From: Olivibacter jilunii
Lineage (GTDB): Bacteria; Bacteroidota; Bacteroidia; Sphingobacteriales; Sphingobacteriaceae
Direction of reading: 5' to 3'
Length of the DNA: 64,000 bases
Assembly: GCF_900607235.1 (NCBI RefSeq)
Contig: NZ_LR027848.1
Location: forward strand, 310,001-374,000
Part shown: piece by piece, positions 61,782 to 64,000 of the stretch
How the letters are laid out: every line of letters begins with the position of its first letter
Position numbering within the stretch: position 1 is the stretch's first letter
The notes under the pieces: generated by a model
The model's database searches: none
Told to the model about the DNA's origin: nothing
The model's input: only the letters and a program-made list of their open reading frames with translations
Program-made: the position numbers and the translations under genes

Positions 61782-62411
61782 TTATCTCGCCATTAAGCTA
61801 ACGGCTTCACTCCAATCACTTACACCTTTTCCATTACGGGCACGCACGCGTACGCGGCAAACAACACCGGGAATCAGCGGAGCGATAATGTTGTTACGAG
61901 ACGAAGTAGTAGATAAGATGTCGCCCCATAATATGTTTCCATTATCGTCTACTTCGGTAGCATAGCAGTATTCGTACTCCCAGGCTTTTTTAACCGGGTT
62001 AAAATCGAAGCGAATTTGTCCGCTCTGTGCGGTATCGCTCAGACGAAGACGCTCTGGTATAGCAGGAGCAATCAACGAGGACCGAAGCGGCTTTACGGGA
62101 AAGCCCGAACTTAAAATAATATGTAAGGCCCCGTCTGCAACGGCATCCACATAAAACGCTAATTGCCTAAGTCCTTTCTCGAGTGCCTGGCGACTCACAT
62201 TTTTTTCACTGGTGTTCAAAGGACTACCCTTCCGGGTAGCCGCCAGTTTGAGCCGATAATCATCAAGGAGTAACTGTATATCTGTCAACGCCGGAACGGG
62301 CGTTTCGAAATTTGGATTGTCCGTCATGGCGGTAATGACGGTTGTTCCTAAAGTTGCCATGGCGTCGTCTGCGATATTACTAAATCCTATAGCGATGTAT
62401 CTATTTTGCAT
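61782..62411 (-). CDS. fibronectin type III domain-containing protein
   Basis: A 209-residue protein without a signal peptide. The N-terminal half (about 1-115) is of unrecognised family (DDAMATLGTTVITAMTDNP, LEKGLRQLAFYVDAVADGAL). The C-terminal half (about 125-207) is FN3-like: IRFDFNPVKKAWEYEYCYAT, VCRVRVRARNGKGVSDWSEAV. Its lack of a secretion signal is odd for FN3 domains. It lies next to a 21-bp repeat array and A-rich heptamers, in the accessory end of the window. Confidence 0.8.
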   Translation of the reverse strand: MQNRYIAIGFSNIADDAMATLGTTVITAMTDNPNFETPVPALTDIQLLLDDYRLKLAATRKGSPLNTSEKNVSRQALEKGLRQLAFYVDAVADGALHIILSSGFPVKPLRSSLIAPAIPERLRLSDTAQSGQIRFDFNPVKKAWEYEYCYATEVDDNGNILWGDILSTTSSRNNIIAPLIPGVVCRVRVRARNGKGVSDWSEAVSLMAR

Positions 62412-62414
62412 ATT

Positions 62415-62450
62415 TAAAAAATTAAAAATTAAAAAATAAAAAGTAAAAAG
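62415..62450. repeat. A-rich heptamer repeat upstream of the FN3 gene
   Basis: TAAAAAAT, TAAAAAT, TAAAAAA, TAAAAAG, TAAAAAG in a row (one 8-mer, four 7-mers), starting 4 bases before the FN3 start codon. A shorter relative occurs upstream of the HIT gene near 19650-19673. Confidence 0.65.
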
Positions 62451-62469
62451 CTTGTCTCCCGAAGGGATG

Positions 62470-62504
62470 GCCTATTACTTAAAGCCTATCGCCTATTGCA
62501 CATT
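62470..62504. repeat. heptamer repeat upstream of the FN3 gene
   Basis: GCCTATT, ACTTAAA, GCCTATC, GCCTATT, GCACATT: five 7-mers, three of them near-identical, in the same leader region as the A-rich array. Confidence 0.55.
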
Positions 62505-62682
62505 TACGTTGGCTTGGACGGATGTTTTCTCTTTGTTATCATCTACTTATATTTGTATAAGTCCATCAACCGCTGATGAACAAAACAAAATTGAGTAGAA
62601 TCAAAAAAAGCCATGTCCGAAAATGACGCATATGGCGTTTTTGTCGTTTTTTGACGCTTTTGTCCGATAAAAGAGGAGGAAA

Positions 62683-63207
62683 AGTACGTTTAAGGATGAC
62701 CAAATCGAACGCTCTATTGACTAAATTTATTCCAAATCCATATAGATTTAATACAATCTTGATCGTTGTTAATATAAACTTAGAAAGGTCTGACAGAACG
62801 TTATAGAACTTTGTCACAACTGTGAACAACGTTAGAACAATTTTAACCAATTATGGGGTAATCTTGTTTGTGTTTAATTCAAACTTGATTAAGATTACGA
62901 CAAACTTGGTCTAGTTTATAACAACATTGTTCATTGTTATTGCAAACGTAAACAAGTTTGCTATTTCTTTAGTTAAGTTTATAGCAGAGATGAGCAAGGT
63001 TAAAGCAAGCTTGATCAAAAGTGTCTCAACTTATCTTAAAATTACCTTCATATTGTTTGTATTTACTTCAAACGCTTCTACCTTCATAACAAACTAATAC
63101 GTGTTAAGGATAAACTTAAGCATGTTTATCTCAAACTTATTTGCGTTTGTCTTAAACTTAATTGTGTTTATCCCAGTCTTACTGACATTTATTAAGGCTT
63201 TCTAGAC
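62683..63207. repeat. degenerate 21-bp tandem array, about 25 units
   Basis: Consecutive 21-base units can be laid out without a gap from 62683 to 63207. The common core is GTTTAT near the unit start and CAAACTT in the middle. Clear units begin at 62872, 62914, 62977, 62998, 63124, 63145 and 63166. Three-base periodicity is kept, so each unit equals 7 codons. On the plus strand one frame gives heptads like FNSNLIK, FITTLFI, FAISLVK, FIAEMSK; on the minus strand xxKFEIN. Each of these frames is broken by at least three stops. It is either a decayed heptad-repeat gene or a non-coding array. No spacers as in CRISPR. Confidence 0.72.
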
Positions 63208-63230
63208 CTTAGGTGTGCCGCAAACAAAAA

Positions 63231-63255
63231 AAGCCGCGGGCAATTGCCGCGGCTT
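63231..63255 (-). terminator. Rho-independent terminator of the small minus-strand gene
   Basis: Perfect 9-bp stem AAGCCGCGG/CCGCGGCTT with a 7-base loop; on the minus strand a T7 run follows. Lies 49 bases past the stop at 63305 and borders the 21-bp array. Confidence 0.85.
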
Positions 63256-63304
63256 ACCAAGAAATTTTTTTACATCGGAGCAATCCCATTGCTCATCTAT
63301 CCAC

Positions 63305-63526
63305 TCAATTCCGGTTAATCTTCAGAAAGGCAGCTATTTTTGATACAGGCGTATCGAGGTATTCTGCAACATGATATACCGTAACGGGCTGCTGCTTTTC
63401 CAAAGCATACATGTCGCGGATCAACTGCATATGGCGTTGGCATGTACGCATGCTCTTGCCCAAGATCAGCTGTAGATCCGCGGTAAAAACAGATAATCGA
63501 CGTAAATTTACTTCCATATCCTCCAT
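63305..63526 (-). CDS. small uncharacterised helical protein, possibly HTH
   Basis: A 73-residue protein starting at ATG 63526 (or ATG 63517, giving MEVNLRR). Predicted helices are ADLQLILGKSMRTCQRHMQLI and VYHVAEYLDTPVSKIAAFL in parts; the spacing would suit a helix-turn-helix, but no named family was recognised. The frame is open to 63580, yet the promoter at 63538 would start transcription downstream of that, so the short form was chosen. It has its own promoter and terminator, arguing that it is a real gene. Confidence 0.65.
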   Translation of the reverse strand: MEDMEVNLRRLSVFTADLQLILGKSMRTCQRHMQLIRDMYALEKQQPVTVYHVAEYLDTPVSKIAAFLKINRN

Positions 63527-63537
63527 TTTTGCTATCA

Positions 63538-63568
63538 CAAATTTAGCAGCTACCATAAGCAAAAGCAA
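63538..63568 (-). promoter_or_regulatory. promoter of the small helical protein gene
   Basis: On the minus strand TTG (63568-63566), 20 bases, TAAATTTG (63545-63538). Start expected near 63532, a few bases before ATG 63526. Confidence 0.55.
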
Positions 63569-63768
63569 GCATAAGCGCAATAAAACACGGCTTTTATTGA
63601 ATTTTTATCAAATTTTAAATACCTGTCGTACAAGCTTTTCAATTTTCGTAATGCTTGATCAAATACTCATTATGAAAATGTTAAGGTTTTTGTAACAAAG
63701 AGGGCATTGAAACATAGAAAAATAGATAAATCACACAGTTCGGGTCAAAGCCTTTTAAACTAGCCGTA

Positions 63769-63798
63769 ATGTGTATAAATTTTATTATCTTTACACAT
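63769..63798 (+). promoter_or_regulatory. putative operator of the vapB gene
   Basis: Inverted repeat ATGTGTA (63769-63775) and TACACAT (63792-63798) around a TATCTTTA box, 17 bases before the antitoxin start. VapB-type antitoxins usually bind such repeats to repress their own operon. Confidence 0.45.
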
Positions 63799-63814
63799 AG
63801 TAAAAATTACAGAA

Positions 63815-64000
63815 ATGAGAACTAATATAGAGCTAGACGAAAACCTCATTCAACAGGCGCTTCAAATAAGTAAACTAAGGACAAAGAAAGAAGTCGTTCA
63901 TGAAGCATTAAAGCAATATATTGCCTCTCTGAAACGAAAAAGCATTATAGCGTTGAGAAAGAAGGGCACTTGGGAAGGAGATCTCGACCAGATGCGTAGC
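63815..64000 (+). CDS. vapB: VapB-type antitoxin (type II toxin-antitoxin), runs off the window
   Basis: The first 62 codons are visible from ATG 63815: MRTNIELDENLIQQALQIS, then KTKKEVVHEALKQYI-like sequence and GTWEGDLDQMR. This is the ribbon-helix-helix N-terminus and toxin-binding tail of VapB antitoxins (DUF2191 type). No stop occurs before 64000. A VapC PIN-domain RNase gene should follow to the right. A putative operator lies upstream. Confidence 0.82.
   Translation, partial: MRTNIELDENLIQQALQISKLRTKKEVVHEALKQYIASLKRKSIIALRKKGTWEGDLDQMRS

Follow-up and report, generated by a model that had tools for sequence, protein, structure and literature searches.

A degenerate 21-bp tandem array upstream of a small FN3 protein gene in Olivibacter jilunii and its counterparts in Bacteroidia

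The 64,000-nucleotide stretch of Olivibacter jilunii DNA that was analysed here (the window) contains, between a gene for a small FN3 protein and a gene for a 73-aa protein, a tandem array of units that keep their length much better than their letters. A sequence-only reading had described about 25 units of 21 bp with heptad coding potential on both strands and had left three options: a decayed heptad-repeat gene, a DNA or RNA element with two-turn phasing, or a mutating minisatellite. We asked which of these the array is, whether it has counterparts in other genomes, and how it relates to the genes beside it.

The array and its neighbours in the window

Positions 62683-63207 had a lag-21 identity of 0.492 (z 9.2), whereas 500 first-order Markov sequences gave 0.291. 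Further peaks were present at lags 42 (z 7.4) and 63 (z 7.8), together with weak rises at lags 10, 11, 31 and 52 (z 2.7-3.0). The signal started at about 62680 and ended at about 63207, and the top 15 lag-21 segments of 300 bp in the 64 kb were all located inside the array. Cutting in phase yielded 24-25 units. Adjacent units were about 49% alike, and one phase was held over the 24-25 copies without lasting drift. When the units were aligned to a profile, shift 0 was the best fit for 15 of the 18 units in the scored stretch (about 62831-63252), and two of the three misfit units sit at the upstream edge of this stretch, outside the array. The degenerate tandem array proposed from the letters was confirmed by these values, and the core noted there, GTTTAT..CAAACTT, is the consensus of the window array. 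On the FN3 gene strand this consensus resembles AAACTTGATTAAGTTTG and is palindromic (dyad z 4.8 and 4.1 in two tests). The array had a folding z of -4.5 relative to dinucleotide shuffles. Tandem Repeats Finder reported only 63124-63172, corresponding to 2.3 of about 24 units; standard repeat finding misses such arrays because the units are too degenerate.

In the own genome the consensus gave 59 matches and the reversed control pattern 77; this lack of enrichment speaks against dispersed target sites there. A search of 62000-64000 with Rfam 15 gave no match to the array at E ≤ 1, and the same search on 20 loci from the collection gave only two tRNAs at threshold and no array match. Known RNA families are disfavoured for the window array and for these 20 loci.

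Table 1. Features of the window locus (positions within the window)
Feature	Position	Strand	Basis
FN3 partner gene, 209 aa	61782..62411	-	weak Pfam fn3, AlphaFold2, Foldseek
Tandem CGNCA(AAA) element, 9-11 bp spacing, between array and FN3 gene	62614..62664 (ends approximate)	-	chain count
Degenerate 21-bp array, 24-25 units	62683..63207	.	lag 21/42/63 peaks, dyad, phase
Intrinsic-terminator-like site between small gene and array	63231..63255	-	stem scan
Small 73-aa protein gene (family A4), upstream of array	63305..63526	-	AlphaFold2 pLDDT 88.7

The features of the locus are listed in Table 1. The terminator-like stem has nine pairs, seven of them G-C, and is followed by TTTTT. The scan, which covered the window only, found no terminator on the gene strand between the array and the FN3 gene. 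Since a terminator lies before the array and an operator-like element between array and gene, co-transcription of the two is not evident at the window. A VapB-type antitoxin gene (Pfam E 6.8e-19) starts at the window edge (63815-64000, plus strand).

The match of the FN3 protein to Pfam fn3 was weak (E 0.0041; 17.7 bits, under the Pfam cut-off of 25), and neither Pfam nor NCBIfam gave a full-length model for the small FN3 protein family. The AlphaFold2 model (mean pLDDT 87.5, pTM 0.51) consists of N-terminal helices (H15-29, H42-61, H64-92) and a C-terminal FN3 domain. Among the 50 Foldseek matches listed, FN3-containing structures were found throughout, and the BFVD matches listed were largely FN3 and phage tail proteins. 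A ToxN/AbiQ-type endoribonuclease was absent from the protein as judged by Pfam (fn3 only), Foldseek (FN3 folds) and PADLOC (no match at E ≤ 0.01). The PADLOC defence families did not match the FN3 protein, the A4 protein or a CHAP-type protein found at related loci. A defence-family identity was discarded, as the only PADLOC match was a weak one of an HTH_17-type protein to mad1 (E 2.2e-4). A phage or plasmid origin was also discarded: no match was found in phages, plasmids or IMG/VR, the last being scanned by peptide patterns that reach close relatives only.

The A4 family had some match in 41 of 151 genomes, and the 73-aa A4 protein had no PDB match below E 1. It is probably a DNA-binding regulator; at other loci an HTH_17-like protein replaces it upstream. 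Before the FN3 gene, the CGNCA chain had 4 members in the own genome, 5 in Olivibacter sp. XZL3 and 4 in genome G002, while shuffles gave at most 2. Chains of 5-6 members precede four HU-HIG genes, which are themselves preceded by an A4 gene, and the spacing was 8-11 bp across the three Olivibacter-type FN3 and the four HU-HIG genes. In the other 14 A4-type FN3 loci tested the chain was absent (0-1 members). The CGNCA(AAA) element is likely the operator of the A4 small protein. Besides the window, the CGNCAAA element was noted at L158, L163, L164, L167 and L185. A4 genes also precede a gene for a protein of about 186 aa with an NDLxxGSSGxxG-like start (L171, L173, L175, L178), and no 21-bp array was detected between the two genes at these four loci.

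Association of arrays with the FN3 gene family

A search with the window FN3 protein found relatives in 14 of 60 sampled genomes, the own genome included, with 28 matches in genome G022. With a 23-row profile, some match was found in 90 of 151 genomes of the GTDB family, many of these being FN3 domains of large proteins, and a match at E of about 1e-20 or better in 24 of the 151. This profile gave at least 20 matches each in G022 and G115 and 16 in G134. The collection comprised 110 loci with 109 gene hits, representing 84 distinct genes.

We counted arrays for the 80 family genes with at least 700 bp of upstream sequence. A 21-family array was present within 2.5 kb upstream of 55 of them (69%), and 25 had no detectable upstream array. 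Downstream (≤1.5 kb), such arrays were found at 8 of 82 genes. When periods from 10 to 65 were compared upstream, the best period (n=56) was 21 in 20 cases, 42 in 22, 63 in 8, 43 in 2 and 44 in 1, and another value in 3, so that 53 of 56 belonged to the series 21, 42, 43, 44 and 63. Arrays similar to that of the window were present before family genes in its GTDB family and also in five other GTDB families of Bacteroidia. Neither of the two outcomes named beforehand as refuting the observation, a missing lag-21 peak or a lack of similar arrays in relatives, was seen.

Control sequences from the own genome held no 21-family array: none of 27 control loci (81.5 kb) had one, the 64-kb window had none besides 62683-63207, and none was found in a further 381 kb. 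In 381 kb of G134, two arrays without a family gene were seen besides the FN3-linked one. In G132, 381 kb contained the linked array and four more that lack a full family gene; one of these four precedes a lipoprotein gene with a weak family match (5e-8). In genome G011, where the family is absent, 7 of 29 periodic regions in 381 kb had lags of 21, 42 or 43, and three of the seven fall inside open frames of at least 200 codons. From these counts, made at a slightly stricter cut-off (z 6 versus 5.5), we expect an array in about 2-5% of random 2.5-kb stretches, as compared to the 69% observed. Many intergenic repeats were noticed in G011 (L291-L310), several of them built from 7-bp AAACTTT-like words (lags 14, 28, 42); these repeats are of another type but can imitate a lag-42 signal.

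We hold the association itself with high confidence and regard the array as a partner that evolution has retained beside the FN3 gene. Among the titles and opening lines of abstracts searched in the open-access literature, no paper was recognised as describing such arrays.

At four G022 loci (L064, L068, L073, L074) genes for a small membrane protein and a CHAP-type hydrolase (25.1 bits, cut-off 26) intervene, which places the array 0.9-1.7 kb away from the FN3 gene on its upstream side. The membrane protein resembles a holin by eye, and the same two genes stand upstream of FN3 at L069, L070, L071 and L077 of this genome; in L064, L068 and L074 the FN3 gene is followed by one for a small lipoprotein-like product. 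The membrane protein/CHAP/FN3 neighbourhood of G022 looks like a lysis cassette. L109, L110, L114 and L115 have a small protein gene downstream of the FN3 gene; the one such protein tested matched phrog_1501 (function not known; E 3.9e-11), a family named DUF5675.

Anatomy, turnover and coding potential

In the detection set of 54 arrays the best lag was 42 in 27 arrays, 21 in 24, 43 in two and 44 in one. The median array length was 360 bp and the median distance to the gene 173.5 bp. Phase was kept well: shift 0 was best for 625 of 755 scored units over all arrays, and only three phase-shifted runs of at least three units occurred. Of 51 arrays, 24 had a palindromic unit consensus (dyad z of at least 3), whereas 20 null repeats gave 0.5 such arrays on average and 2 at most; some arrays, such as L118, L128 and L130, had no dyad. 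A weak profile was common to the arrays (score 0.176, permuted maximum 0.135). The harmonics showed A/T content at period 7 (z 9.4) and purines at period 21 (z 7.0); period 3 was not raised across arrays, and period 10.5 stayed at z ≤ 1.9. Curvature, predicted with wedge parameters, was ordinary (mean z 0.20, above 2 in 6 of 51 arrays), and intrinsic DNA curvature was, therefore, rejected as an explanation.

Comparison with Olivibacter sp. XZL3 shows how the units change. The 73-aa A4 protein is identical over 73 residues in both strains, the FN3 protein is 92% identical, and the flanking DNA is 89.9% (454 bp) and 84.4% (173 bp) identical. The 586 bp (own) and 617 bp (XZL3) between the flank blocks gave chance-like blastn matches only, the best of which was 27 bp on the reverse strand (E 0.033). 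No array register stood out between the two (0.43 versus 0.35 same-phase, z 1.6, 32 registers); 13 array pairs were compared in this way, and values were obtained from 11. The unit profiles of both strains were still similar (0.66, null 99th percentile 0.467), and over the family profile similarity tracked FN3 identity (Mantel r 0.298, reached in 0 of 2000 permutations). Wholesale replacement of the array between the two strains is softened as an explanation by these two values. Related profiles without unit-by-unit homology imply that the letters drift or homogenise quickly while the pitch is kept. For co-variation of the unit with the FN3 protein, partial r was 0.05 for the N-domain and 0.14 for the C-domain. 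A and T consensus columns were equally conserved (0.73 each); mutagenic reverse transcription was rejected, as no strand bias of that kind was seen.

The heptad coding potential claimed for both strands was not supported. In the scored stretch of the window each of the six frames has at least three stops, and no codon-position signal was present across arrays: column entropy by codon position had a mean z of -0.36, and none of 63 arrays exceeded 2. In 36 of 51 arrays every one of the six frames contained stops. An open gene-strand frame was present in 11 of 63 arrays, as compared to 6.9 expected from column-order permutations and 4.7 (maximum 9) from column shuffles; for antisense frames it was 10 of 63, with 7.2 and 3.6 expected. 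Since the excess is alike for both, any open-frame excess is not strand-specific. Stops in the best frame numbered 134 over the 63 arrays, as compared to 180.8 in column shuffles. In the L342 array two of three gene-strand frames are open, one of them as a 14-residue repeat of about 127 codons. This array is nearly homogeneous, so its openness says little for or against coding.

A living or decayed heptad-repeat protein gene would agree with 21, 42 and 63 all being multiples of 3, with the open gene-strand frames and the lower number of best-frame stops, and with the long L342 repeat. We nevertheless regard it as extremely improbable, because codon periodicity and the codon-position entropy pattern are both absent, most arrays are stopped in all six frames, pitches of 43 and 44 occur, the antisense frames exceed the column-shuffle control equally, and the second frame of L342 is open too, as is often the case in homogeneous repeats. 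For the window itself a decayed heptad gene was not supported, given the same lack of period 3 and of an entropy pattern and the pitches of 43 and 44, and it is very unlikely that the window array is a gene remnant.

Signals at the array start and possible roles

We compared folding of the arrays with column-shuffled copies. The gain had a mean z of -1.9 on the gene strand (below -2 in 26 of 54 arrays) and of -1.8 on the opposite strand, with no strand difference (p 0.77). G-T mismatches in the arms were not raised (266 seen, 287 expected; A-C 328 seen, 336 expected), and covariation within units was weak (1388 complementary arm pairs, 1322 expected). A folding gain on both strands without an excess of G-T fits symmetry at the DNA level as well as RNA.

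A motif at the array start bears on transcription. Of 71 flank rows, in which four loci were entered twice, 8 had exact KYTCTTTRACA on the gene strand between -51 and +11 relative to the array start; the eight rows represent 6 distinct loci. On the reverse strand of the 71 rows there were 0 matches at ≤1 mismatch. The shuffle expectation was 2.4 rows at ≤1 mismatch, a looser count than that of the exact matches, and on the array-to-gene side a match at ≤1 mismatch was found in 3 of 54 stretches. The same motif was seen in the 16S-23S interval of G115, of G132 and, with one mismatch, of G000; in G134, where a contig ends, it precedes 23S. Because of this occurrence in rRNA operons, the array-start motif is, judged by its letters, the rRNA antitermination boxA. 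An eLife paper reportedly deals with boxA at CRISPR arrays. In another source, boxA upstream of 16S rRNA and CRISPR arrays is treated as a processivity element (PMC7862264).

The loci with boxA are L311, L312, L313, L324, L325 and L342 in G039 and L143 in G115, i.e., the 6 distinct loci of the flank rows and L342; most arrays are without it, and at the window array the best match has 3 mismatches. Genome-wide, all 5 exact matches to the 16-base boxA in G039 precede an array and a family gene. Four of them belong to FN3 arrays already known. The fifth, L342, was found from boxA alone and is followed by a 42-bp array (0.98 identity) and a family gene (E 5.9e-19). L324, the sixth boxA array of G039, has the 11-base core and is two letters off the 16-base form. 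As the L342 array ends only about 60 bases before the ATG, it probably lies within the mRNA leader. The gene-strand folding z of the G039 boxA arrays was -1.6, -1.0, -2.7, -3.8, -0.8 and 0.1, i.e., below -2 in 2 of 6. Thirteen one-mismatch matches in G039 have the form GTTCTTTGAAATATTG, and for at least 9 of these a contig ends no more than about 100 bases away; L350, a site of this type, had no Rfam match.

These results point to the array as the non-coding half of a conserved and previously unrecognised two-part locus of Bacteroidia, consisting of a repeat array and, downstream of it, the gene for an FN3 protein of ~210 residues with a helical N-domain. Of the three options, the DNA or RNA element phased at two helical turns was supported in outline, by the recurrent pitch, the frequent palindromes, the constant partner gene, and boxA in one genome. 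Our preferred reading, to which we give a probability of roughly 0.45, is a transcribed and mostly untranslated repeat RNA that acts together with the FN3 protein. The array would be transcribed on the FN3 strand, giving a long RNA with about 15-25 short units, most of it untranslated, and boxA, or elsewhere another signal, would let RNA polymerase pass through the array. The RNA may act by the shape and spacing of its units and not by their letters, serving either to scaffold the FN3 protein or, as a structured leader, to control FN3 synthesis. As the window has no boxA, transcription at this locus is an inference. A more specific version, which we put forward as speculative, is a new type of chromosomal ribonucleoprotein element: each locus would make a private self-complementary repeat RNA of 21-nt units, and the FN3 protein would assemble on it or read its spacing alone, so that the letters could be rewritten freely. 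Such an element would be the bacterial equivalent of satellites that evolve fast at a fixed repeat length. If the preferred reading is true, standard repeat finding largely overlooks the non-coding half of a locus type of Bacteroidia that is present in several copies in some genomes, the arrays are a test case for selection on spacing and symmetry instead of sequence, and the small FN3 protein family gains a candidate molecular partner.

The main rival, which we consider less likely, is a platform at the DNA level. Here the palindromes, spaced by two helical turns and facing the same side of the DNA, would be bound by dimers, as on iterons or centromere arrays, and the bound array would control the FN3 operon or organise DNA. 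It is in line with the pitch (21 bp are two turns of B-DNA), with dyads that have no strand preference, with the position of the window array between a terminator and an operator-like element, and with the palindromes of 21-22 bp pitch just downstream of genes for HU-HIG, an HU-type DNA-binding protein. Against it, the units differ between the own strain and XZL3 beside near-identical proteins, which makes a sequence-specific local binder unlikely; predicted curvature is ordinary, the own genome shows no enrichment of the consensus, the boxA of G039 would act on RNA, and the array is independent of an HTH gene. This independence also bears on the array as an operator for the upstream HTH or A4 protein. 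Among 80 genes with at least 1.2 kb upstream, an A4 or HTH_17 gene, as detected by these two profiles, was located within 2.5 kb upstream of 26 of the 54 with an array and of 10 of the 26 without (Fisher p 0.48), i.e., array presence does not depend on it. Although about half of the arrays thus have such a gene, 28 of 54 do not, identical A4 proteins face different units, and the CGNCA element before the Olivibacter FN3 and the four HU-HIG genes is the better candidate operator. The operator reading of the array was rejected as highly improbable.

A neutral or selfish minisatellite with fast turnover and a chance intergenic position is quite unlikely. Of the minisatellite option, the fast turnover stood: unit homology to XZL3 is not detectable between flanks that are 83-90% identical, similar arrays occur elsewhere in some genomes, and substitutions are without strand bias. 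The neutral origin did not, since one pitch recurs with unrelated units linked to one gene family (55/80), units about 49% alike stay phased over 24 copies, dyads are far above chance, and boxA is positioned at the array start. A pair of the type III toxin-antitoxin kind, in which a repeat RNA neutralises the downstream protein, shares with our loci the order of tandem repeats and then one protein gene, the private repeats per locus and often the multiple copies. We think it hardly probable, because the protein shows fn3 and FN3-fold matches only and no ToxN-like nuclease, is without a PADLOC match, and follows many repeats (about 15-25) of 21 nt with no array-gene terminator found at the window.

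Other known systems share single features with the arrays. Iterons and plasmid centromere arrays are direct repeats two helical turns apart and often palindromic. The arrays resemble them in two-turn spacing and frequent palindromes; they differ in being chromosomal, in having no constant DNA-binding partner (A4/HTH_17 in 26/54, p 0.48), and in units that are rewritten beside nearly identical neighbour proteins. The seven boxA loci resemble CRISPR arrays and rRNA leaders (PMC7862264) in a candidate long repetitive or structured untranslated RNA after boxA. Unlike CRISPR arrays, in which near-identical repeats alternate with unique spacers, they consist of contiguous, degenerate, locus-private 21-bp units, and they have an FN3 protein as partner. 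Among the neighbouring ORFs within about 2.5 kb no cas gene was recognised by eye.

HU-HIG is reportedly treated in a paper on HU/IHF clades. The HU-HIG cassettes of Bacteroidetes (PF18291), some of which have A4 upstream and CGNCA, carry 21-22 bp palindromes in most of 20 loci. Just downstream of the HU-HIG genes the mean z was 2.56 at lag 22 and 1.75 at lag 21 (controls -0.31 and 0.18), and the best lag was 21, 22, 43 or 44 in 18 of 20 loci (E ≤ 1e-20). Their array differs in being short (3-8 units) and downstream of the gene, and their partner is an HU-type DNA-binding protein. At L185-L188 and L215-L230, 3-8 palindromes with a pitch of 21-22 bp lie about 40-260 bp past the HU-HIG stop codon. 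A 22-bp palindrome array was also seen at L242 (G134:C33:217559-217819), which adjoins an XRE-like regulator (by eye) and not an HU-HIG gene; its GAGTACTC core is the same as in L217. The HU-HIG palindromes vary between many loci, e.g., GAGTACTC, GGTTAACC and GCATATGC.
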